This document shows, piece after piece, positions 33,143 to 43,371 of a DNA stretch of 64,000 nt (its first letter is position 1; each line of letters begins with the position of its first letter). Both the position numbers and the translations under genes were made by a program. This stretch comes from an uncultured Tateyamaria sp. GTDB lineage: Bacteria > Pseudomonadota > Alphaproteobacteria > Rhodobacterales > Rhodobacteraceae. The notes under the pieces were generated by a model. It ran no database searches. It was not told the DNA's origin and saw nothing but the letters and a program-made list of their open reading frames with translations. The DNA is taken from NCBI RefSeq assembly GCF_947503385.1, contig NZ_CANNDO010000005.1:124001-188000 (forward strand), read 5' to 3'.

Positions 33143-33252
33143 CTGGATGTTTTGTGTGGCGCGGGGCTAATTGTTGCCAATTGCTTAATGCGCCTCTGTA
33201 ACCCATTGATTTTGGGTGGGCTGGATGGTGTCCCAGCATGGGACACCCCCGA

Positions 33253-34815
33253 TCAGTTCACCGTGACCCAGCGCAGAATAAAGAAGTTGTCGGGCCGCTG
33301 GGTGAGCTCAATATTGGCCGCCGCCCCCCAGACCAGAGGCTGCACATACATGGGCACATAGGCCACCTCATCCTGTAGAATTTTGGTGGTCTCATCCAGC
33401 ATTGCCTGCCGCTTGGCGTCGTCGATTTCCGACTGGATCATGGGCAAAAGTTCATCCACCCGCGCATTTGAAAAGCCTCCGAAATTCCAGCTGCCCAACT
33501 TCTTTTCCTCATTGGGCGTGGCGGCAAGAAAGCGGATCGGATGCTCCGCATCAAAGGTGCCCGGCGACCAGCCCAGCAGGTACATATCATAATTGTCGGC
33601 CCGCAACTCGGGCCAGTAATTCTGGACCGGCATCGCATCCAGCACGGCGGTGATCCCCACCTGCGCCAGCATCCCTGTGACCGCCTGACAGACCGCCTCA
33701 TCGTTGAGATAGCGGTCATTGGGGCACTTCAGCCCGAACGAAAATCCGTCGCCGTAGCCCGCTTCGGCGAGTAGGGCGCGGGCGCGGTCCGGGTCAAAGG
33801 CGGGCCGGTCCGCCCGCGCGTCCGAAAAGCCGCGCATCGCGGGGCTGACCAACTGGCTCGCAGGTTCCGCATTGCCGCGCATAATGGTTTGCAGGATCGC
33901 GGGGACATTGACGGCGTGGGCCACGGCCTGCCGCACGCGGACGTCCGCAAACGGGTTGGCCCCGTCTACGTCCGACGAGTATTTCAGCGCCTCCGCCTCA
34001 TGCGGGAAGCCCAGCATGATCACCCGCGCTTCGATCCCTTGGATCAACTTGACGCTGTCATTTCCGGACAGACGCGCCGCGTCCTGGATCGGCACCGGGT
34101 TGATCAGGTCCACGTCCCCCGACAAAAGCGCCGCCACGGCGGTGGCCGAGTTCTGGATCGGCGTCAGTTCGGCGCGGGTGATGTTGTGCGTGGCCGTATC
34201 CCACCAGCCCGCATGGGGCTCCATCACGGTGCGCAGGCCGGGTTCCCGCGTGGTGACGCGAAAGGCTCCGGTGCCGTTGGTGTTGAGCGTGGCATAGTTG
34301 CCGTTTTCCTTGTCGGGCAGGACAGCGTTGTTTGCCTCGGCCCAGCCGCTGTCCATGATCATCCAGTTGGCGATGCTGTCGGGAAAGATCGGGTTGGGGG
34401 CAGAGGTCATGATGTCGACAGTGTAGTCGTCCACCTTGATCACCTCGGAGACGGGCGCAAACCAGCTGCGCGTGTCCGACGCCTCGTCGCTGGCGCGCTG
34501 GTACGAGAATATCACGTCATCGGCGTTGAAATCCTCACCGCCATGGAAGGTCACGCCCTGCCGCAGATTGAACCGCCAGCCCATCCCGTCGCCGATAGGC
34601 TCCCACGAGGTGGCAAGCGCAGGCTCAATGGACATGTCCCGGTCCCGCCGCACGAGGCCCTCGTAGACGTTGTTGAGAAAGCCCAGAACGGCGGCAGAGT
34701 TCACCGCGTGGGGGTCCATGGTCTGCGGGTCGGTTGTTTCGGCCCACTTGAACTCTTCCGCAAGAGCGGGTGCCGCGCCGATACACAAGGCGACGGGAAG
34801 AACGTATCGGAACAT
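33253..34815 (-). CDS. ABC transporter substrate-binding protein (dipeptide/SBP_bac_5)
   Basis: 520 aa. The signal peptide MFRYVLPVALCIGAAPALAE starts at 34815, preceded by AAGGAT; the longer frame to 34857 is rejected for that reason. VTFHGGEDFNADDVIFSYQR is the family 5 signature. It is the likely periplasmic receptor for the dppBCDF genes further along the minus strand. A mobile element inserted about 146 bases upstream of its start. A related second receptor lies at 41.8-43.4 kb. Confidence 0.93.
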   Translation of the reverse strand: MFRYVLPVALCIGAAPALAEEFKWAETTDPQTMDPHAVNSAAVLGFLNNVYEGLVRRDRDMSIEPALATSWEPIGDGMGWRFNLRQGVTFHGGEDFNADDVIFSYQRASDEASDTRSWFAPVSEVIKVDDYTVDIMTSAPNPIFPDSIANWMIMDSGWAEANNAVLPDKENGNYATLNTNGTGAFRVTTREPGLRTVMEPHAGWWDTATHNITRAELTPIQNSATAVAALLSGDVDLINPVPIQDAARLSGNDSVKLIQGIEARVIMLGFPHEAEALKYSSDVDGANPFADVRVRQAVAHAVNVPAILQTIMRGNAEPASQLVSPAMRGFSDARADRPAFDPDRARALLAEAGYGDGFSFGLKCPNDRYLNDEAVCQAVTGMLAQVGITAVLDAMPVQNYWPELRADNYDMYLLGWSPGTFDAEHPIRFLAATPNEEKKLGSWNFGGFSNARVDELLPMIQSEIDDAKRQAMLDETTKILQDEVAYVPMYVQPLVWGAAANIELTQRPDNFFILRWVTVN

Positions 34816-34952
34816 GGGGTATCCTTTTCGCTTTAGTGGCAGAACTCTGAGGAACACTAGAGCCGAGCACGCGCGGAAAGGGAAGGGGTAGGGACTGAGG
34901 ATGGGGTCAAAGGTCGTTCAAAGGGCAGACGCTGTTTGGGTGGTCGGTTTGC

Positions 34953-34960
34953 GCAGGAAA
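34953..34960. repeat. Left direct repeat flanking the transposon
   Basis: GCAGGAAA here is repeated at 38898-38905. Read as 6 bp (AGGAAA, 34955-34960 and 38900-38905) it directly abuts the 26-bp inverted repeats; read as 8 bp, the usual IS1595 size, the right element end moves in by 2 bases. Either way it looks like a target-site duplication. Confidence 0.7.
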
Positions 34961-34986
34961 GCGGCCTTATGTATCAAACGCACCAA
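34961..34986 (+). repeat. Left terminal inverted repeat of the transposon
   Basis: 26 bases starting GCGGCCTTATG and ending ACGCACCAA, exactly complementary to 38874-38899. A match of this length at random is negligible. Confidence 0.9.
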
Positions 34987-35029
34987 CAATCTAGCTGAAC
35001 AATCGGGCCGCGTGAATCCATAATGCGGC

Positions 35030-35440
35030 ATGGAACACACGATATTCGGACTGATCAAAAAGCGCGGCGAGATAGCGGGACAGCACAAGGTCGCGCAGAA
35101 GGCCGCGGATGCCCTTAAGGCCGATCTCGACGCCGTAGATCGCACGCTGGTGCTGTGCGGCTATCAGGACGATCCCAAAGCCATAGCGCCACGCGGCAAG
35201 TATCGGCAGCTATTCGGGCGAAACGAGTTGAAGCTGACAATCATCAACATGCTGCGGGAAGCGCCTGCGGATGATGAAACGATAACCGCGCAGATCATCG
35301 CAGCGAAGGGCTGGCACGCTGACGACGCGTTGCGGGCAGATGTGCTAAAGCGGGTGCGTCACGCCATCCAGCGCCAGCAGAAAGACGGGCATGTGGTGCA
35401 GGACTTCGGGCCGGATGGGTGTTTGTGGCGGCTGGGCTAA
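35030..35440 (+). CDS. Transposon passenger protein of unknown function, 136 aa
   Basis: MEHTIFGLIKKRGEIAGQHK opens a helical N-terminal half (charged coiled coil, DALKADLDAVDRTLVLCGYQ), followed by RNELKLTIINMLREAPADDE and a winged-helix-like C-terminus ending CLWRLG. Similar proteins turn up in alphaproteobacterial accessory regions in my recollection, without known role. It starts 43 bases inside the left inverted repeat. DNA binding is possible but not shown. Confidence 0.75.
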   Translation: MEHTIFGLIKKRGEIAGQHKVAQKAADALKADLDAVDRTLVLCGYQDDPKAIAPRGKYRQLFGRNELKLTIINMLREAPADDETITAQIIAAKGWHADDALRADVLKRVRHAIQRQQKDGHVVQDFGPDGCLWRLG

Positions 35441-35522
35441 ATATAGCGTCAACCTTTACTCATTGCCTCTAATCTTGTGTGTGATACTCAGTTGAAAAGG
35501 CAACATCTTTTTGGGGAAGCGC

Positions 35523-36539
35523 ATGACGATTGAAGAAAGATCTGATCTTTTCAAGGCAATTGAGGCTGATAGAGGTTCGAAAGTAATTCTTTATGCAACA
35601 GGCAACCGGCCAAATATGGAAGCCCAGATTGCAAACGATGCTTTTGACTATTTTGTCCATCATCTTGATAAGATTTGGCCTGAAGAAACAAAGAAAATTT
35701 CCCTAATTTTGCATACCGCAGGCGGTGACAGCGCGGCGGCATGGAGAATTATTAACCTCTTGCGCATATTTTGTGATGATCTCGAAGTATTGGTACCTAA
35801 TCGTGCTCACAGTGCGGGAACTCTGATCAGCTTGGGGTGTGATCGAATAGTGCTTACGAAACAAGCAACTCTAGGGCCCATAGACCCCAGCCTTAGCGGC
35901 CCGCTGTCGCCTGCTGTGCCGAACAACCCAAATCAGCGAGTGCCTGTAAGCGTTGAAGCGGTGCAGGGGTATTTAGACCTGGCGAAAGAAGAGCTGGGGA
36001 TAGCAGATGGCCCAGCCTTGTCTCAAGTTCTTGTCAAGCTGACAGAACAGGTGCATCCGCTGGTTCTGGGACAGATTTTTCGAAGCCGGAACCAGATTAG
36101 AGCGCTTGCAGAAGGCTTGCTTGAACACCAAGGCGTTAAAAAAGACGACAGCGACAATATCGTAGATTTTCTATGTTCAGACTCAGGCTCACATGATCGA
36201 ACAATTAACCGGCGAGAGGCCGCAAAGCTGGGACTGAACGTCGAAAAACCATCACCGGAATTGTACAAACTGATGAACGATTTGTACGAAGACATTGCAA
36301 AGGATATGCAACTGAGATCGAAGTTTGACGCGATGCAAGAGTTGGGTGGACAGCCACAGGCAAATTTTGAGTGTCAGCGTGTTTTGATCGAGAGCGTGGC
36401 TGGGGGGAGCACTCAACAGTTGACTAAAGGAAGCATTCGTTTGATACAGAACCAACAGCAAATGGCCCCAAATATGCCACCTATGACCGTTACTGGTACG
36501 GAAGTTGGCGTAACATTTGATGGGTGGGAGCAGAAATAG
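35523..36539 (+). CDS. ClpP-fold serine protease, SDH (serine dehydrogenase proteinase) family
   Basis: 338 aa. LILHTAGGDSAAAWRI (oxyanion glycines 67-68) and VPNRAHSAGTLISLGCDRIV with nucleophile Ser97, then LTKQATLGPIDP, match the SDH_sah/SppA-like clade of the ClpP-crotonase fold. No signal peptide or membrane helix, so it is cytosolic. GGGGAAG before ATG 35523 sets the start. Base composition is markedly lower in GC than the neighbours. The stop TAG overlaps the GTG of a 61-aa ORF by one base. Role in the element is unknown: cleavage of a partner protein is the obvious guess. Confidence 0.85.
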   Translation: MTIEERSDLFKAIEADRGSKVILYATGNRPNMEAQIANDAFDYFVHHLDKIWPEETKKISLILHTAGGDSAAAWRIINLLRIFCDDLEVLVPNRAHSAGTLISLGCDRIVLTKQATLGPIDPSLSGPLSPAVPNNPNQRVPVSVEAVQGYLDLAKEELGIADGPALSQVLVKLTEQVHPLVLGQIFRSRNQIRALAEGLLEHQGVKKDDSDNIVDFLCSDSGSHDRTINRREAAKLGLNVEKPSPELYKLMNDLYEDIAKDMQLRSKFDAMQELGGQPQANFECQRVLIESVAGGSTQQLTKGSIRLIQNQQQMAPNMPPMTVTGTEVGVTFDGWEQK

Positions 36540-36724
36540 TGGACCAATTCATAGTTGTACCTCTAAAGAGTGATGAGAGCGCTATGCCGATCTACGGTAC
36601 AGGAGTACCCCAGACTGCTACCGTTAATACAAGCCACTATGTCACTGATTACCAGGACGTTCGCCTAGACGACTCAAGCAGATATGCGACCGTGCCGATG
36701 GTACTTGTGGACAACTTGCGCTAA
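36539..36724 (+). CDS. Small ORF coupled to the SDH-family protease
   Basis: 61 aa starting with GTG inside TAGTG: VDQFIVVPLKSDESAMPIYG, then TGVPQTATVNTSHYVTDYQD and a tail ending VLVDNLR. Beta-rich, no known domain. Single-base overlap with the protease gene implies translation by the same ribosomes. Its stop overlaps the transposase stop by 3 bases. It may be a regulator, adaptor or substrate of the protease, or only a by-product frame; coding status is moderately supported by its tight fit. Confidence 0.5.
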   Translation: MDQFIVVPLKSDESAMPIYGTGVPQTATVNTSHYVTDYQDVRLDDSSRYATVPMVLVDNLR

Positions 36725-37683
36725 GCCGCTCGCTGCCAGTAACCCTTCCACTGGCGCGACACTGGCGACCCCATGGCGTTGCTGACGATGATCTGAGCCA
36801 GCGTCCCGTTGTCGGTGCGGCGGTTGTCTTCCAGCCAAGCAGCGTGGTTTGCATACTGGTGCAGATATTGCGGGCTGACGTGGTGGTGCTGGCCTTGGAC
36901 CATGCGGCGCAGTCGGGAAAAATAGCTTTCGACCATGTTCGTGTGCTTGCCGTGGTCACTGTATATCTCGGAGTGGTTCACGCGGTCGACATGGTACCCC
37001 ATGTGCAATTCATCCCAATGGCTGGCTTCATCGGCTGACATAGTGGACAAGCGGGATACGTTCTCGCTTGCCAGCGCAACGCCTTCACCCTCATTTAGGG
37101 TAACAAATGGCAGGGTGCGGCCCTCACGCTCACGCATGGCAATAACAACGCGGCGCTTGCCTGTCTGGTGGCGCTTCAAGCGGCGGTCTTTGCGGTCGGC
37201 CTTGGCATTCTCAGGGCGGATATGACCGCCAAAGTAAGCGCCATCAATCTCAACATGACCTTCCAACACTTCGCCTGTGTGGACTTCCAACGCCATTGCT
37301 TCGCGCAGCTTGTGGGCCAACACGAAAGCGGTCTTGTATTGGCAGTCCAGATCACGGGAAAGCTGCACCATAGACACGCCCTTGGATGCGTTCACGATGA
37401 TGCAGATCGCGGCTAGCAGGTCCACGAAGTCCATCTTGCGGCTGGCGAAGATCGTGCCGCTGGTGACGCTGAACTGGTGGTGACAGGCCTTGCATTTGAA
37501 CTTGCGGCGCGTGATGATCTTGTAAGCCTCGTCAAAGCCACAGCAGGGGCATACCGCCTCGCCATCCGTCTCAGGCCAGCGCATCTGACAGAACGTCTCG
37601 TAAGCCGCTTCCTCGCCCGCTTTGTAGATCGAGCGCAGGCTCAGTGTGCGGGATGCTGCGGAAAGGAGGAAGTGTTGTGCCAT
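36721..37683 (-). CDS. IS1595-family transposase
   Basis: 320 aa from MAQHFLLSAASRTLSLRSIY. A CxxC zinc ribbon at the N-terminus (CPCCGFDEAYK and CKACHHQF) is followed by the ISXO2-type DDE domain: GHVEIDGAYFGGHIRP, then INHSEIYSDHGKHTNMVES-like text (NHSEIYSDHGKHTNMVESYF). All parts are intact, so the enzyme may be active. It is divergent from the DUF6471 gene, with two palindromes in the 102-base gap. Confidence 0.95.
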   Translation of the reverse strand: MAQHFLLSAASRTLSLRSIYKAGEEAAYETFCQMRWPETDGEAVCPCCGFDEAYKIITRRKFKCKACHHQFSVTSGTIFASRKMDFVDLLAAICIIVNASKGVSMVQLSRDLDCQYKTAFVLAHKLREAMALEVHTGEVLEGHVEIDGAYFGGHIRPENAKADRKDRRLKRHQTGKRRVVIAMREREGRTLPFVTLNEGEGVALASENVSRLSTMSADEASHWDELHMGYHVDRVNHSEIYSDHGKHTNMVESYFSRLRRMVQGQHHHVSPQYLHQYANHAAWLEDNRRTDNGTLAQIIVSNAMGSPVSRQWKGYWQRAA

Positions 37684-37706
37684 TGTCATTACCTATGATG
37701 TCTATA

Positions 37707-37720
37707 CCCTATAAACAGGG
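37707..37720. promoter_or_regulatory. Palindrome 1 between transposase and DUF6471 gene
   Basis: CCCTATAAACAGGG: half-sites CCCTAT and ACAGGG around AA, one mismatch from perfect symmetry. It lies 24 bases before the transposase start. Confidence 0.55.
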
Positions 37721-37749
37721 GTTACACATCATCATTACAAGGGCTATAT

Positions 37750-37763
37750 CCCTATAAATAGGG
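37750..37763. promoter_or_regulatory. Palindrome 2 between transposase and DUF6471 gene
   Basis: CCCTATAAATAGGG, perfect CCCTAT/ATAGGG halves around AA, 43 bases from the first copy and 23 bases before the DUF6471 start. Each palindrome is next to one of the divergent start codons, as expected for a shared repressor. Confidence 0.6.
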
Positions 37764-37785
37764 TTTTATCCACTGAGGTAATGAA

Positions 37786-38016
37786 ATGCCAAAGGCACAA
37801 ACGGACGCGGAATGGTCGGACCGAGCAAAGAACTTGCTACGTTCTGAACTAAAGAGAAAGGGTGTGACTTATGCCCAATTATCTGATTTACTTGAGAAAA
37901 TAGGCGTTCAAGAGAACGAAAAGAACATTGCGAACAAGATTAGCCGTGGTGTGTTTACAATGGCTTTCTTCCTGCAATGTATGGCTGCAATCGAGGTCAC
38001 AGAATTGAGGCTCTAA
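37786..38016 (+). CDS. DUF6471 protein, probable small DNA-binding protein
   Basis: 76 aa: MPKAQTDAEWSDRAKNLLRS, then KRKGVTYAQLSDLLEKIGV and ANKISRGVFTMAFFLQCMAA. This is the DUF6471 pattern, resembling a helix-turn-helix of the phage-repressor type. The paired palindromes upstream make it the best candidate for the repressor that limits transposase expression. The next gene begins 1 base after its stop, so both are one operon. Confidence 0.8.
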   Translation: MPKAQTDAEWSDRAKNLLRSELKRKGVTYAQLSDLLEKIGVQENEKNIANKISRGVFTMAFFLQCMAAIEVTELRL

Positions 38017-38017
38017 A

Positions 38018-38872
38018 ATGGTTTCTTATGACGTGAAAGAGGAAGGCGACAGGTTGATCATCACGCTTGATCCCGGCCAGCCAGTTGAACTGACTGACTT
38101 GGCAGACAGCTTTGCGGCCCTTTCTCGCATTTATGAGCGCCACTATCGTAGCGGTTCGGATGATGCGCCCCGTCTCTTTGTGACCAAGCTCGAAACCGGG
38201 TCAGTCATAGCCGAGATCGCGCCTTACGGTATTATGATGGGCGGCATCGCCATGATGGATGGCGGCATGATCGTGACCGATTTTGCCAATCGCGTTTGGC
38301 GCGGTATTAGCTATTTCACTGGAGGGGGCAAGGACACAAAGCTGCTCGAAGCACCCTCCAAAGAAGACGCCGCCGACCTCAAAGAGTTCACACGACCATT
38401 GGTCGGAAAGACGGGCGCAAGGCTTGGCATCAAGCAAGCCAGGTATGAAAAAACTGACGGTGAAAAGAAGACAGTTGTTGAGTACAAATTTGATGAAGCT
38501 GAATTGAACAAGGCGTCAGTCAACATAGACAAGGCGCTGGCCCTGCCTGCACCGAAAAAGCCTGAGGAAGAGGACCAAGACGACAAGATACGCTCAGAGG
38601 TGATGCTTTTTCTTGAGCAAGCCAATCGCGGCCCCGGCAAAGAAAGAGGCCGCACTGGCGACAGGGGGCGTGTGCCTGATATTTCAGACAAAGTGCTGCC
38701 TGTCTATTTTAGGCAAAGCATCCAAGGGCTGAAGGAGAAGATGCTACAGGGCAAGGACAACCCATTCGCAATGGTCTTTGTGGTGGATATCTACGCAACT
38801 CGCATGGACGATGAGATCAAGGGCTACACCGTCACTGAAATTCACGACAGCTTTGAACGAGACGACGAATAG
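38018..38872 (+). CDS. Transposon cargo protein of unknown function, 284 aa
   Basis: Not recognised. The N-terminus (VELTDLADSFAALSRIYERH, then RLFVTKLETGSVIAEIAPYG) is a compact alpha/beta part; IMMGGIAMMDGGMIVTDFAN is a hydrophobic stretch that could insert in a membrane; an acidic/basic linker (PKKPEEEDQDDKI) leads to a C-terminal part ending TVTEIHDSFERDDE. It is operonic with the DUF6471 gene, and its stop codon ends 1 base before the right inverted repeat. Being carried by the transposon, it may serve element fitness or host defence; there is no direct evidence for either. Confidence 0.75.
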   Translation: MVSYDVKEEGDRLIITLDPGQPVELTDLADSFAALSRIYERHYRSGSDDAPRLFVTKLETGSVIAEIAPYGIMMGGIAMMDGGMIVTDFANRVWRGISYFTGGGKDTKLLEAPSKEDAADLKEFTRPLVGKTGARLGIKQARYEKTDGEKKTVVEYKFDEAELNKASVNIDKALALPAPKKPEEEDQDDKIRSEVMLFLEQANRGPGKERGRTGDRGRVPDISDKVLPVYFRQSIQGLKEKMLQGKDNPFAMVFVVDIYATRMDDEIKGYTVTEIHDSFERDDE

Positions 38873-38873
38873 C

Positions 38874-38899
38874 TTGGTGCGTTTGATACATAAGGCCGC
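38874..38899 (-). repeat. Right terminal inverted repeat of the transposon
   Basis: Exact reverse complement of the 26 bases at 34961-34986. Confidence 0.9.
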
Positions 38900-38905
38900 A
38901 GGAAA
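38898..38905. repeat. Right direct repeat flanking the transposon
   Basis: GCAGGAAA, same as 34953-34960. Its first two bases are also the last two of the right inverted repeat as drawn here, so the true boundary is uncertain by 2 bases. Confidence 0.7.
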
Positions 38906-39050
38906 GGGACATTGCAAAGTCTGAGTACAATATCCGCTTTCAGCCCAAAGTACTAATTGCTGCGATTGGAACGAATGTCGGTTTTGGTCTATTCGCGCGG
39001 CTCAGCGCACATCTGAAGCGTTAAGACCGGCAAAAAAAGCGGAACCACGG

Positions 39051-39971
39051 TCAGGATTTTCTTACGTCCTTGCGAAATGCGCCGGGACTATCGCCGGAAG
39101 TTGCTTCGAATGCGCGGCTAAAGGCACTCCGGCTGGAAAACCCGACAGTTTCAGCCACTCGTTTGATGGGCAAATCTGTGTTGCGCAGCAAGTCGCCCGC
39201 TTTGCGCACCCGCAGACTGCGCAGCAACTCCATCGGCCCTGCGCCATAGGCTTCGGCAAATCGCTTGGCAAAGGCGGCCCGGCTCATGCCGGCAATGTCC
39301 GCAAGGGATTCCACGGAATACGGATTGCCCGGGTTGTCCAGCATTGCGTTCAAAGCCTTCCAGAGCATCGGGTCGCGCAACGCTGCCATCCAGTCCAATG
39401 GCCCGCCCTGCTCTGTTATCCTCTTGCGCATCATAACGATCAGCGCTTGCATCAACAGAACCCGGATCAGGGCACGGCTGCCCACGCTTGGCTCGCACAC
39501 TTCGTGCATCAGCGTGTCAACCAATGCCATGAGGTCGCTGCCGGGTTCGGCGCGTGTCACCAGCGGTTCGCGGATCAGGTTGACCACGTCCGTGGCGCCC
39601 ATCAGCCCGATATTGACGTGCGCACACAGTGCGATCAGGCGGCTGGCGCCGCCCTCACTTTCATCAGGGGCAGACTTGAGAACTTGCGCGAGGTTCAGCG
39701 CAGCAGGTTTGCACGATGGTCCGGGCACGATCACCGCGCCATCATTCAAGACCTCGTGGCTGTTCAGCGATGGGATCAAAACCAAGCTGCCCTTGGATAT
39801 CCTGATCGGAGCCTGCCCCCGCATCGTGATCTGGCCCTGGCCGCACAGAATATAGTGCAGGGTCACCGCGGCATCTGGTTTGAGGCCAACATGACATGTC
39901 CCATGGATTTCACAGACCGCAAACGGTTCCGTACGGATGTCGAGTTGATCGAAAATGTGGTCGTAGCTCAT
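39051..39971 (-). CDS. AraC-family transcriptional regulator
   Basis: 306 aa from MSYDHIFDQLDIRTEPFAVC. An N-terminal cupin (TLHYILCGQGQITMRGQAPI, then LVLIPSLNSHEV) is followed by the two-helix-turn-helix AraC domain (SVESLADIAGMSRAAFAKRF and IKRVAETVGFSSRSAFSRAF). The upstream frame to 40049 has no similarity. It is divergent from the Tat-exported hydrolase with 128 bases between starts and probably regulates it. Confidence 0.9.
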   Translation of the reverse strand: MSYDHIFDQLDIRTEPFAVCEIHGTCHVGLKPDAAVTLHYILCGQGQITMRGQAPIRISKGSLVLIPSLNSHEVLNDGAVIVPGPSCKPAALNLAQVLKSAPDESEGGASRLIALCAHVNIGLMGATDVVNLIREPLVTRAEPGSDLMALVDTLMHEVCEPSVGSRALIRVLLMQALIVMMRKRITEQGGPLDWMAALRDPMLWKALNAMLDNPGNPYSVESLADIAGMSRAAFAKRFAEAYGAGPMELLRSLRVRKAGDLLRNTDLPIKRVAETVGFSSRSAFSRAFEATSGDSPGAFRKDVRKS

Positions 39972-40099
39972 TGCGGGACTTTGACCGTAAACACCTTTGC
40001 AGTCATGTAAATTTTCGTGATCGGTCCAATTCAAGACGAAAAAGCACACAGACTATCGCACGAAGGGCTTCTCGATAAACACAAAGAAAGAACGACCCT

Positions 40100-40936
40100 A
40101 TGTGCAATTGTGATGACCACGATCATGGCGACAGAAAACTGTCTCGCCGTCAGGCTTTGACCACCGGGCTGGCCGGGACTGCGGCGGCTGCAGCAACAGC
40201 GCTTGGCGGAACCGCTCAGGCGCAAGAGGCAGCCAACCCCTATGCCGAACCGGCAGAGCCCGGACTGCCACCCTCTGACATGAAGCTCGACCTGAGCCGC
40301 GCGGCCCTCGTGGTGACCGATCCCCAAAATGACTTCCTCAGCCCCGACGGGGTAACCTGGGGTGTCATCGGCCCATCCGCCACCGAACTGAACACGGTAG
40401 AAAACATCGAAACACTGTTCCGCACGGCCAAGGAACACGACATCACGACCGCCGTGTCGCCGCATTACTACTTTCCCACCGACCATGGTTGGAAGTTCGA
40501 AGGCGCCTTGGAAAAACTGATGCATCAGATCGGCATGTTCGACCGCAAGGGCCAGCTGAATGTTGACGATTTCGAAGGCTCGGGCGCGGACTGGCTTGAG
40601 CGGTACAAGCCCTACATCAACGACGGCAAGACCATCGTGACATCCCCCCACAAGATGTACGGCAACGACACCAACGATCTGACGCTGCAGCTGCGCAAGC
40701 AAGGCGTGGATCAGGTCATTCTGGCAGGGATGTCGGCCAACCTGTGCACGGAATCCCATATGCGCGAACTGATCGAAAACGGGTTCGAAGTGGCGGTCGT
40801 GAAGGACGCGACGGCTGCGGCGCAACTGCCGGAAGGTGATGGATACCTGGCGGCCCTTATCAACTTCCGCTTCATCGCCAACGCGGTCTGGAGCACCCAA
40901 GAAGCTGTGGCGCAAATCAACGCGGCCGCGCGCTAA
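40100..40936 (+). CDS. Tat-exported isochorismatase-family cysteine hydrolase
   Basis: 278 aa. DRKLSRRQALTTGLAGTAAA is a twin-arginine signal, so the protein is exported folded; a CNCDDHDHGD stretch precedes it. The catalytic triad of the family is visible: Asp in VVTDPQNDFL, Lys in TSPHKMYGND-type text, and Cys in ILAGMSANLCTESHMRELIE. Such enzymes hydrolyse amides, ureides or isochorismate; periplasmic members are uncommon. The substrate is unknown. The AraC regulator is divergent. Confidence 0.88.
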   Translation: MCNCDDHDHGDRKLSRRQALTTGLAGTAAAAATALGGTAQAQEAANPYAEPAEPGLPPSDMKLDLSRAALVVTDPQNDFLSPDGVTWGVIGPSATELNTVENIETLFRTAKEHDITTAVSPHYYFPTDHGWKFEGALEKLMHQIGMFDRKGQLNVDDFEGSGADWLERYKPYINDGKTIVTSPHKMYGNDTNDLTLQLRKQGVDQVILAGMSANLCTESHMRELIENGFEVAVVKDATAAAQLPEGDGYLAALINFRFIANAVWSTQEAVAQINAAAR

Positions 40937-40959
40937 ACCAACCCTTTCCCCAGGGGGCT

Positions 40960-40973
40960 CTGATCCAGATCAG
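40960..40973. promoter_or_regulatory. FNR/FixK-like box upstream of the Dps-like gene
   Basis: CTGATCCAGATCAG has the TGAT-N4-ATCA core of FNR/Dnr sites with C and G instead of the outer T and A; the full dyad CTCTGATC-CA-GATCAGAG (40958-40975) is perfect. It lies about 96 bases before the Dps-like start. It may also be a weak 3' structure of the preceding gene. Confidence 0.4.
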
Positions 40974-41062
40974 AGTTCTGCCGTACCCGCTATCCACATG
41001 TGAGATGGCGGGCACGGTCACAGTCTTGTTCGCGCAAGCCTACAGAAATCAAAGGACAAAGA

Positions 41063-41506
41063 ATGAAATCAAACTCAGTCAAGGAAGACACGATCAGGGC
41101 AGTCCTCGGCAAGGTTTTCCGCCTCTACCTGCAATCCCAGTGCTATCATTGGAACGTGGAAGGCCCGAATTTCCACAATTTGCATGCCATGTTTGAGGTC
41201 CAATACCAGGCGTTGAATGGGTTCCTGGATGCGGTCGCAGAGCGGCTGCGTGTTCTGGGTGTGAACGCACCCGCATCGTTGGATGAGCTACTTGCTGGCG
41301 GCGAGGGACCCCAATTGTCTGCGGCCAAGACTGCCAATGAAATGCTGGCGAACCACTGCGCTGATTTCTTGAGCTTCATCGATACTCTCCGCAATGCAAT
41401 TCAGGTTCTAGCTGATGTCCGGGACGACGGCACAGTCGGAGTTCTTACCGACATTCTAGAATGGAGCGAAAAGCAGCATTGGATGATGTCAGCCGCTGCG
41501 AAATAG
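41063..41506 (+). CDS. dps: Dps-like ferritin (DNA protection in starvation)
   Basis: 147 aa. The ferroxidase region QSQCYHWNVEGPNFHNLHAM, FEVQYQALNGFLDAVAERLR and VLGVNAPASLDELL match Dps: His and Asp/Glu ligands at the dimer interface. It would store iron and quench peroxide, forming dodecamers. Starting at 41063 (MKSNSVKEDTIRAVLGKVFR) fits the usual length. No long Lys-rich N-terminal tail, so DNA binding is not obvious. Confidence 0.9.
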   Translation: MKSNSVKEDTIRAVLGKVFRLYLQSQCYHWNVEGPNFHNLHAMFEVQYQALNGFLDAVAERLRVLGVNAPASLDELLAGGEGPQLSAAKTANEMLANHCADFLSFIDTLRNAIQVLADVRDDGTVGVLTDILEWSEKQHWMMSAAAK

Positions 41507-41740
41507 AGGGCGGTACTGTATTGAGGCGCACAATTCTGCCTAAATCAGATTGAACACCAGAAAAGAGTACAGTTGGAAAGGTGGGCGCCAAGCCGACATT
41601 GGCGCAGCCGCCGCGAAAGTACGCTTTGTCCCGCAATACGGACGCAAAAAGCGCTCAAGATCAACGACTGCTCCGGCATGAAACCCGATGTCTGCGACGC
41701 ACAACCCTGCTGCCGAACCCTTGTGCCACTCGCGAGGGCA

Positions 41741-41773
41741 ACAAAAAAAGGCGGCACTTTTCGTGCCGCCTTT
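41741..41773 (-). terminator. Terminator of the second binding-protein gene
   Basis: AAAGGCGGCAC (41747-41757) and GTGCCGCCTTT (41763-41773): an 11-bp perfect stem with a 5-base loop, and on the minus strand followed by a T7 run. It lies 21 bases after the stop at 41794. The remaining 230 bases up to the Dps-like gene hold no convincing gene. Confidence 0.93.
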
Positions 41774-41793
41774 CCCAACGCGTCGTGCGCAAA

Positions 41794-43371
41794 TCAGTTC
41801 ATCGTAAAATACTTCACCTTCGGTTGATCCTCGGGATCAACCTCGATGCCCACGCCGTCGGCCATGCCCCAGTTCAGGACCTGGTGGTGGATGGGGATGT
41901 AGAGCGCTTCGTCCTGCACCACGCGCCAGATGTCGGCGATGTCGGCGTTGCGGGCCTCGAGGTCGGTGTTGGAGGCCAGTGACTTGATCTTGGCGTCGAT
42001 CTCGTCGTTGTCGAACCCGGTGCCGTTCCACGTGCCGACATCGCTTTCACGTCCGTGGACGAGGAAGTTGAAGATGTACTCGGAATCGTAGGTCGGCACA
42101 CCCCAGCCCAGCATGTAGAAGTCGGTCTTGCCGTCTGTGATCTTGGGGAAATGCTGTGCCTTGGGGATCGCATCAAGGTTCACCGTGACGCCAATCTGGC
42201 CCAGCATCCCAACAGCGGCCTGACAGATCGCCTCGTCGTTGATGTAGCGGTCATTGGGGCAGTCCAAGCGGATGGAGAAGCCGTCGCCATAGCCTGCCTC
42301 GGCCATCAGCGCCTTGGCACCTTCGATATCGGTGCTCGACTCACCATCCATCTCGGCCGTCCAGCCATTGACAAACGGCGGCGCAATCATGCCCGCAGGC
42401 TCGGATTGGCCGCGCATGACAACCTGACGGATGGCGTTACGGTTGATGGCCATGGACATCGCCTTGCGCACGCGCACGTCGGCGAGGGGGTTCTTGCCAT
42501 CGACGTTGTCGGCCTCCAGATCATCCGCGCCCTGGTTCATACCAAAGAAGATCACGCGGTTCTGCGGCGCCTGCTTGACGGTCAGACCCTCGGCTGCGTT
42601 CACACGTTCGAGGTCCTGCACCGGCATGTCCTGAAGGAAGTTCACTTCGCCGGACAGCATCGCGGCCACGCGGGTCGCGGCGTTTTGGATGGGAGTGTAG
42701 ACAATTTCGGACACTTCCATCGGGAACTGGTCGCGACCCCAATAGGCCTCGTTGCGGGTCATGACGGTTTTAACGTCAGGCTCGCGGCTGGTCAGGGTGT
42801 AGGGACCCGTGCCGTTGGCGTTCGTGGTGGCATAAGTGATCTCGCCGCCCTCGAAATCCTGCACGTTCACGGTGTTGTTCGCCTCGGTCCAGCCCTTGTC
42901 CATGATGAACAGGTTGGTCAGGTTCGAGGGCAGGATCGGGTTCGGCCCGTCTGTCACGATCTCGACGGTATAGTCGTCAACGGCGCGCACTTCGGTGATC
43001 GAACCGATCAGTTCTTTCATGTCCGAGTTTGGCTGCTTGGCCCGCTCAAAGCTGAATACGACGTCCTCGGCGTTGAAATCTTCGCCGCCATGGAACTTGA
43101 CGCCCTCACGCAGCTTGAACACCCAGACGTTCGGATCGTCGGTCTTGGGCGCCCATTCGGTCGCCAGCGCGGGTTCAAACGCGCCGGTGACATCACGGAT
43201 GATCAGCGGTTCGTACATCTGGTGGCGGATCGTGTGCGTCGGCCCTTCGTTCTGGGCGTGGGGGTCCAGCGTCAGGGCGTCGCCCGCGCGCGCCCACTTG
43301 AGCGTCTCGGCGCTGACAAGGCCGGTGGATCCCAGCAGCAGCGCAGTCGAAAGCAATGTGGTGAATCTCAT
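41794..43371 (-). CDS. ABC transporter substrate-binding protein (SBP_bac_5)
   Basis: 525 aa with signal peptide MRFTTLLSTALLLGSTGLVS. VKFHGGEDFNAEDVVFSFER is the family motif. It is clearly related to the receptor at 33.3-34.8 kb, with near-identical motifs (DRYINDEAICQAAVGMLGQI against DRYLNDEAVCQAVTGMLAQV). No permease or ATPase gene accompanies it, so it is an orphan receptor that may share the dpp transporter. Confidence 0.93.
   Translation of the reverse strand: MRFTTLLSTALLLGSTGLVSAETLKWARAGDALTLDPHAQNEGPTHTIRHQMYEPLIIRDVTGAFEPALATEWAPKTDDPNVWVFKLREGVKFHGGEDFNAEDVVFSFERAKQPNSDMKELIGSITEVRAVDDYTVEIVTDGPNPILPSNLTNLFIMDKGWTEANNTVNVQDFEGGEITYATTNANGTGPYTLTSREPDVKTVMTRNEAYWGRDQFPMEVSEIVYTPIQNAATRVAAMLSGEVNFLQDMPVQDLERVNAAEGLTVKQAPQNRVIFFGMNQGADDLEADNVDGKNPLADVRVRKAMSMAINRNAIRQVVMRGQSEPAGMIAPPFVNGWTAEMDGESSTDIEGAKALMAEAGYGDGFSIRLDCPNDRYINDEAICQAAVGMLGQIGVTVNLDAIPKAQHFPKITDGKTDFYMLGWGVPTYDSEYIFNFLVHGRESDVGTWNGTGFDNDEIDAKIKSLASNTDLEARNADIADIWRVVQDEALYIPIHHQVLNWGMADGVGIEVDPEDQPKVKYFTMN

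Follow-up and report, generated by a model that had tools for sequence, protein, structure and literature searches.

An IS1595-family cargo transposon in an uncultured Tateyamaria with a probable two-bay layout and candidate protective cargo

The stretch of DNA analysed here (the window, 64,000 nucleotides from an uncultured Tateyamaria sp.) contains at 34962-38898 an element of 3937 bp, which we interpret as a complete cargo transposon of the IS1595 family, built of a fixed core and two exchangeable bays and loaded with candidate protective cargo, at a probability of about 0.6 for this reading taken as a whole. Its parts carry different weights: that the element is mobile is close to certain, a fixed core with two bays is highly probable, and whether a ClpP-fold protease and the small gene that overlaps it (the protease pair) would act as a defence or toxin-antitoxin-like module is an evenly balanced question. 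Transporter insertion sequences (ISs) with passenger genes are known in the IS1 and IS1595 families, as the available portions of PMC3129680 and PMC8496243 describe, and passenger-carrying IS1595-family elements are documented also in part of PMC5704250, where a cited title names tISCpe8 as a lincomycin resistance element; IS1595 members are described as usually having a single transposase gene (PMC8101967, from an excerpt). What looks new here is the two-bay layout, the sharp border of the cargo and the protease pair, and no description of a fixed-core two-bay layout with immune-type cargo was found in the open-access literature searched, as far as its text was available.

The comparison rests on a transposase scan of genome contigs that returned 246 relatives, the best 80 of which were retained for analysis (75–96% identity over the best segment). 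Both ends were recognised at 72 of these 80 loci, which together with the window make up the set of 73 elements; the eight loci at which no second end was recognised, several lying at contig edges, were excluded from element counts. The records are mostly named as genera of Rhodobacteraceae, others as Phenylobacterium, Hyphomicrobiales or Rhizobiaceae. Distant names are found on a few metagenome bins (L016 Flavobacteriaceae, L087 Nitrospirae and L092 Pseudomonadales among them), which may be mis-binned.

Comparison with the 72 elements of other genomes set the ends of the window's element, which begin with CGGCCTTATG. The sequence-only reading, an earlier description of this DNA made without database searches, had delimited the element by a perfect 26-bp inverted repeat and flanking direct repeats of 6–8 bp. 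That perfect repeat is present in the window (34961-34986 and 38874-38899, with ~4e-9 such pairs expected by chance in 6 kb by simple arithmetic), but it reaches one base too far on each side and takes a target base into each arm; the terminal inverted repeats proper are 25 bp long and perfect, and once the ends are corrected the direct repeats become an exact 8-bp target duplication, CAGGAAAG. The window's terminal repeat recurs at both ends of the 72 other elements with at most 5 mismatches in its 19-bp core, and the 8-bp duplication is exact in 65 of the 73 elements and has no more than one mismatch in 67; four elements lack one (L019, L024, L061 and L086) and two lie at contig edges. The 67 scored targets favour A at position 2 (51) and position 4 (50) and T at position 5 (55) and position 7 (43). 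A search for the repeat in other genomes, proposed together with the first description, has been rewarded, with the same ends and 8-bp duplications in many genomes, and repeats lying closer around the transposase, named there as a finding that would refute the description, are absent from the six listed inverted pairs of at least 14 nt. No second pair of the element's ends exists elsewhere in its genome at up to 3 mismatches.

The IS1595 family is said to have been defined by Siguier in 2009, and the element bears its marks. The transposase has an open, intact reading frame, as first noted, and matches the transposase domain PF12762 at 126.7 bits (cut-off 27), the N-terminal zinc ribbon PF12760 at 51.7 bits (cut-off 25.4) and NF033547 at 147.2 bits (cut-off 75); the four cysteines of the zinc ribbon are conserved in 72–73 of the 73 transposases. 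The terminal inverted repeats and the 8-bp target duplication are likewise those of the family, bays A and C hold non-transposition genes between the repeats, and the element is an IS1595-family member acting as a transporter IS. Its family comprises seven subgroups, ISPna2 and ISNha5 among them. With the IS1595 transporter ISs tISCpe8 and MTnSag1 it has in common the transposase domains, the terminal repeats, the 8-bp duplications and the capacity for passengers, as these are given in the available parts of PMC8101967, PMC5704250, PMC3129680 and PMC8496243, whereas the window's group adds a recurrent DUF6471 gene (72/73 elements), a recurrent 136-aa family in what we call slot D (65/73) and two cargo bays. 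Two diverged IS1595-type transposases are found in the same genome (L165, G000:C1:57201-58163, and L166, G000:C2:971496-972449), 58% and 55% identical to the window's, respectively, and with different neighbouring genes; the L166 transposase has DUF6471, and L165, as read by eye from the open reading frames (ORFs), has a helix-turn-helix-like gene in that place.

Fixed core and bays

With the transposase drawn to point rightward, the elements commonly run from one repeat through bay A, a left-pointing DUF6471 gene, the transposase, bay C and a left-pointing slot D gene to the other repeat. The core consists of the two inverted repeats, the transposase, the divergent DUF6471 gene and the winged-helix-like gene of slot D near one end. 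Bay A is the space from one repeat to DUF6471, occupied in the window by p284; bay C extends from the transposase stop codon to the winged-helix-like gene and is occupied by the protease and the 61-aa gene. Five passenger genes had been counted initially, two of which, the 136-aa gene and DUF6471, belong to the core by their frequencies given above. The conserved C-terminal half of the slot D protein resembles a winged helix and has weak matches to winged-helix Pfam families (61 members). Between its fixed borders bay C measures from zero to ~1.5 kb, with a median of 0.85 kb in the 65 elements with slot D, and it holds at least one ORF of 78 aa or more in 62 of the 73 elements. The expectation that the cargo set would travel as a unit with the same ends did not hold: the window's protease occurs in 1/73 elements, the window itself, and none of the other 72 has it; the cargo as one travelling unit is rejected.

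The bay A gene p284 has no Pfam match at E ≤ 1 and no match on plasmids, and a model of its structure weakly suggests an alpha/beta part and an OB-like part. Its bay A family is found in 11/73 elements. In a survey at the level of the family Rhodobacteraceae 10/295 genomes match p284, the window's own included, and beyond its own genome the matches are 22–26% identical over most of the length or cover short stretches only. By profile comparison the bay A proteins form several unrelated families. A single superfamily for the slot A classes was tried and rejected: among six classes and nine single proteins no pair exceeded 40% probability in profile–profile comparison, and split halves of two classes, used as positive control, gave 99.7 and 100%. 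One protein cluster is found both in bay A (L019, L024, L034 and L069) and in bay C (L054, L067 and L080), so that cargo can change bay; from the equal counts, four in bay A and three in bay C, these proteins are probably the IrrE/M78 peptidases.

The DUF6471 protein matches PF20075 at 108.5 bits and is a probable regulator, putatively a repressor, encoded divergently from the transposase. The gap between the two genes contains two palindrome near-copies, CCCTATAAACAGGG (37707-37720) and CCCTATAAATAGGG (37750-37763), as a candidate DUF6471 operator. Among the listed gap palindromes with 6-bp arms, CCCTATttATAGGG is found only in the window, L067 and L083, and L067 and L083 also have the DUF6471 proteins closest to the window's. 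The predicted DNA fold of the gap is nothing special (z = -1.0). In the phylum, DUF6471 was detected in 24/299 genomes, 22 of them above the cut-off, and at 11 of its 26 loci an IS1595-type transposase lies within ~1.5 kb, divergent in 11/11 (the window and its C2 relative included). The loci without a detected transposase are L142, L143, L146, L147, L149-L151, L153-L159 and L161, two of which are below the cut-off. No paper on DUF6471 was found in the open-access literature searched, in so far as its text was available.

Cargo exchange and the contents of bay C

Comparison of the 73 sequences shows that cargo turnover is much faster than transposase change. A bay C cluster is common to 29 of the 2628 element pairs, and 6 of these 29 also share bay A. 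Among the 25 closest transposase pairs bay C is shared in none and bay A in eight. There are 49 pairs with transposases at least 92% identical, of which 34 have a bay C ORF of at least 78 aa in both members, and they share no cluster. Below 92% transposase identity bay C is shared in 4/69 pairs (90–92%), 12/608 (85–90%) and 6/1188 (80–85%); sharing is rare at every identity level and absent at the highest in this element set. The border of the exchanged region is sharp: in 49/49 pairs of at least 92% identity, including some with transposases 97–98% identical at the protein level, the nucleotide similarity breaks off at the transposase stop codon, at a position from -10 to +4 bp relative to it, and on the far side it restarts no more than 25 bp from the stop of slot D in 11 of 14 scorable pairs.

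The window's element illustrates this pattern. Its similarity to L015 covers the 26-bp end, the transposase ORF and the stretch from slot D to the other end, with none in between, while with L067 it has in common the whole left half (bay A, DUF6471 and transposase) and slot D, but not bay C. Its nearest transposases are those of L014 and L015 (96%), its nearest slot D protein is that of L015 (86%) and its nearest DUF6471 protein that of L067 (89%). The nearest relatives thus differ by module, which makes the element a mosaic of modules with different histories.

What exchanges the cargo then? Three routes are possible: selection favouring compactness, homologous recombination of one element with another, and a dedicated step. 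We incline slightly towards homologous recombination via the shared transposase and slot D genes, with the border formed by decay of unselected sequence. The shared blocks are conserved genes, the mosaic make-up of the window's element, whose left and right modules have different histories, fits, and some pairs at 90–92% transposase identity have cargo in common. However, recombination would only move existing cargo and leaves the first arrival of new cargo unexplained, and neither does it explain why the border keeps to the immediate vicinity of the stop codon in every one of the 49 closest pairs, even those with 97–98% identical transposases.

For the contents of bay C we scanned 89 of the 112 slot C ORFs (those of at least 78 aa, smaller ones being dropped), with the window's protease included. 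Pfam matches were found to SocA/Panacea (6), KilA-N, IrrE/M78 and NYN (3 each) and HicB, RelE, MqsA and RhuM (1 each), and among the 25 of 71 PADLOC families listed there are five matches to BstA and three to HEC-09. As a control, 89 length-matched ORFs flanking the same elements matched 20 PADLOC families with one member each, and the 25 of 53 Pfam families listed for them are mostly housekeeping and include none of the bay C families just named. As judged by these matches, the recognisable bay C cargo of the sister elements includes many toxin-antitoxin and abortive-infection families. Five elements (L019, L022, L027, L041 and L064) have a common bay C cluster of 252-324-aa proteins, oriented with the transposase in four and against it in L019, and from the equal counts these are probably the five BstA-like members identified by PADLOC. 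BstA, SocA/Panacea, ImmA/IrrE and other toxin-antitoxin or abortive-infection genes occupy bay C, and some of them bay A, of sister elements; none is present in the window's element, which has the location alone in common with them.

The protease pair and its possible role

The larger of the two bay C proteins in the window matches PF01972, the Pfam family of SDH-type proteases, at 65.5 bits (cut-off 31.3), and its AlphaFold2 model (pLDDT 74.8, pTM 0.73) matches SppA, ClpP and the NfeD-type protease PH1510, as expected of the ClpP/SppA/NfeD fold, which bears out the ClpP-fold protease named in the sequence-only reading. The model has C-terminal beta strands beyond the ClpP-like part. Ser97 and Asp225 are invariant in nine protease sequences, the SAGT motif aligns with that of PH1510, and in our reading of the alignment Asp225 may be the counterpart of the ClpP aspartate. 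With the SDH-type Clp-fold proteases (PF01972; E. coli WP_044064371) the protein shares a Pfam score above the cut-off and a 48.7% identical relative in an E. coli prophage, but it stays far under the NCBI cut-off for the equivalog NF047768, SDH family Clp fold serine proteinase (84.8 of 250 bits), and differs by the extra C-terminal beta strands and the overlapping small ORF. The sequence match to PH1510-type (NfeD) and ClpP peptidases is weak (E 0.0036) and, in contrast to these, there is no ATPase gene within the window's element. No paper on 'Clp fold serine' proteases was found in the open-access literature searched, within the text available.

Relatives of the protease are found in genome G445 (52% identical), in E. 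coli phage-like plasmids (48.7%) and in 12 viral contigs (45–69%). In the order 20/390 genomes match at E ≤ 1e-5, near full length in the window's own genome and G445 only, and among phage records 8/50,697 match, none covering 80%. The pair occurs at an identity of at least 99% in 47/5426 complete E. coli genomes. A shortened and apparently degraded relative (219 aa as annotated) is found on a Rhizobium plasmid (L119:8001-8806), ~4.4 kb from a MazEF-type pair. On a Chloroflexota plasmid (L123:6001-7372) a 30% identical protease precedes a 74-aa gene, with a large AAA-domain protein encoded immediately downstream; protease and 74-aa gene are perhaps a distant version of the pair.

The small gene can also be read as 66 aa from a start at 36524, and we prefer the GTG at the last base of the protease stop. 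An ORF overlaps the end of the protease gene in 15/15 loci, the longest one of 59-75 aa starting 5–16 bases before the stop, and the two genes are small, overlapping and in one direction, as in toxin-antitoxin layouts. Two overlapping genes resemble many toxin-antitoxin operons. The 61-aa protein is homologous to a 71-aa ORF of L124 (z = 19.9 against 500 shuffles). Among E. coli-type copies of the small gene the synonymous to nonsynonymous codon differences are 14 to 4 (L128/L132), 9 to 2 (L127/L132) and 2 to 2 (L127/L133), so that where copies differ much the change is mostly synonymous, as a genuine gene would show. The 59-aa ORF overlapping the prophage protease (L118:8986-9165, L167:6989-7168 and L168:6989-7168) is conserved but unannotated in the three E. 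coli records viewed. The product of the small gene seems somewhat more probably an inhibitor or adaptor of the protease than a substrate.

The genomic contexts of the pair are varied. In E. coli records it lies antisense, between holin and antiterminator Q; in L134 and L135 the protease follows terminase and precedes a gene read as portal, with a further ORF in L135 (8667-9257) read by eye as a prohead protease; an integrase adjoins the pair in L126, and its neighbourhood in L124 includes an endolysin/chitinase and a tail-fibre gene. The G445 pair and an HsdR-like gene converge, and two further scanned neighbours there encode an HD-domain protein and a DUF6381 protein. The prophage and HsdR contexts, together with the toxin-antitoxin-rich bays of the sister elements, suggest a possible defence or toxin-antitoxin role through guilt by association. 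Cargo for host fitness, element stability or phage defence had been suggested from the outset, and of these the link to defence appears plausible in view of the bay C families and the contexts of the pair. By description, the pair can be likened to the E. coli systems PD-lambda-2 and PD-T4-10, which are small toxin-antitoxin-like defence operons, PD-T4-10 consisting of two overlapping ORFs and PD-lambda-2 including an Xre-peptidase protein, according to the portion of PMC9519451 available; the words 'protease' and 'ClpP' are absent from the main text of that paper.

How could such an element and its cargo work? We propose that transposition would move the whole unit into AT-rich 8-bp targets, and that DUF6471 would bind the palindromes in the shared gap and repress the transposase. 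The element would persist because its cargo protects the cell and hence the element itself. Within the pair the small protein would restrain or direct the protease; phage infection would upset this balance, upon which the Ser97 protease would cleave a phage or host protein and the infection would be halted. A bolder joint claim is that the group forms a natural cassette system, with immune cargo swapped at the transposase stop via a dedicated step that may involve the winged-helix protein, and that the window pair is a new two-gene anti-phage system with a fast-evolving partner, common to the transposon, prophages and a restriction-like locus; taken together, this we regard as doubtful.

The element could also be an ordinary transporter IS that has picked up neutral or generally useful genes with no role in defence, bay C accepting anything tolerated. 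Passenger-carrying transporter ISs of the IS1 and IS1595 families (described in parts of PMC3129680 and PMC8496243) provide the precedent, many bay C ORFs are without a family, one is another transposase, and the window's cargo has no PADLOC match. We nevertheless hold this explanation to be unlikely: the recognisable cargo of bay C is skewed to toxin-antitoxin and abortive-infection families, unlike the flank ORFs among the families listed, and the protease pair turns up again in prophages and next to an HsdR-like gene. A defence module also has to be set against an addiction device, with the pair serving maintenance of the element or prophage, or regulation, rather than protection from phages. 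Its resemblance to many toxin-antitoxin operons, the presence of HicB, RelE, MqsA and SocA families in the same bay of relatives and the antisense position between Q and holin in E. coli prophages all fit such a device, but a single-copy chromosomal transposon would gain little from it unless deleted, and we consider it improbable as well. Much more improbable still is a displaced ClpP-fold protease of phage head maturation (a prohead protease). The match to the head maturation protease family NF045542 (30.4 bits) does not reach the cut-off of 120 bits, and the suggestive position of the gene between terminase and portal in L134 and L135 is offset by the separate prohead protease read in L135. 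Moreover, an HK97-family prohead protease is present separately on the E. coli phage-like plasmid, the E. coli prophage gene is antisense and away from head genes, and the L124 and L126 copies are near lysis and tail-fibre genes and an integrase, respectively.

Several observations weigh against our interpretation of the element as a carrier of exchangeable protective cargo. PADLOC (2023 library, E ≤ 1) has no match for the protease, the 61-aa protein, p284, DUF6471 or the 136-aa protein, and no M or S subunit is among the three proteins scanned in the HsdR-like neighbourhood of G445. The cargo statistics have their own weak points: the PADLOC families of bay C, in the 25 of 71 listed, include many redundant RmrA models; the flank control rests on the 25 of 53 Pfam families listed; many bay C ORFs are without a family match; each bay has one protein that is just another transposase (PF01609); two of the 89 proteins scanned for bay C are members of the slot D family; and some of the mechanical ORF calls may be spurious. 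The 4/69 pairs with common bay C just under the 92% threshold mean that turnover is fast, not absolute, and eight of the 25 closest pairs have bay A in common. Nor are the 15 protease loci independent: L118 and L127-L133 are eight close copies of a single E. coli type, L134 and L135 are near duplicates, and about seven distinct lineages remain. Across lineages the small proteins are not recognisably homologous (window against E. coli, z = 0.5; against G445, z = 0.2), so that no single partner family is established and treating them as one family is unsupported. No IS1595 transposase was detected within ~1.5 kb at 15 of the 26 DUF6471 loci, some of which are weak or fragmentary, and the gap palindrome may simply have been inherited with its neighbouring module through linkage.

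If the bay model holds, candidate immune and toxin genes could be gathered by searching with the transposase, and how small transposons gain and replace cargo would become testable, as the border keeps to a fixed place to within ~10 bp. For phage-resistance assays the protease pair itself offers a compact target.

Feature coordinates and insertion locus

Features of the element and its target site (window positions; strand as in the window)
Feature	Position	Strand	Basis
Left target duplication copy, CAGGAAAG	34954..34961	.	Sequence; end position from 72-element comparison
Left terminal inverted repeat, 25 bp, CGGCCTTATGTATCAAACGCACCAA (window orientation)	34962..34986	.	Inverted-repeat search; 72 other elements
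Slot D, 136-aa core protein, winged-helix-like C-terminal half	35030..35440	+	One family in 65/73; alignment; weak Pfam matches
ClpP-fold SDH-type serine protease, 338 aa, putative nucleophile Ser97	35523..36539	+	PF01972; AlphaFold2 model; invariant Ser97
61-aa small protein	36539..36724	+	GTG start overlaps last base of protease stop
IS1595-family transposase, 322 aa, intact ORF	36721..37689	-	PF12762, PF12760, NF033547
Gap between divergent transposase and DUF6471 genes	37690..37785	.	Two palindrome near-copies
DUF6471 protein, 76 aa, core gene divergent from transposase	37786..38016	+	PF20075; 72/73 elements
Bay A gene p284, 284 aa, no known family	38018..38872	+	
Right terminal inverted repeat, 25 bp	38874..38898	.	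Inverted-repeat search
Right target duplication copy, CAGGAAAG	38899..38906	.	Sequence; 73-element comparison

Comparison of the insertion locus with an empty site, as the sequence-only reading had recommended, failed. A search of 20 genomes of the genus with the AraC-type flank gene found a close copy in two, the window's own and G590. The left side of G590 is rearranged, a second substrate-binding-protein gene lying between, and its right-side similarity begins at ~38930 of the window, 24 bp outside the duplication, which together leave no clean empty site. Passenger genes at this locus in a relative without the repeats would have told against the element; G590 has nothing element-like there. 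When window 33248-42999 is aligned with the corresponding locus of G590 (L121), the substrate-binding-protein (SBP) genes of the latter are ordered SBP1-SBP2-AraC, and this differing gene order indicates that the region round the insertion was rearranged in one of the two genomes.

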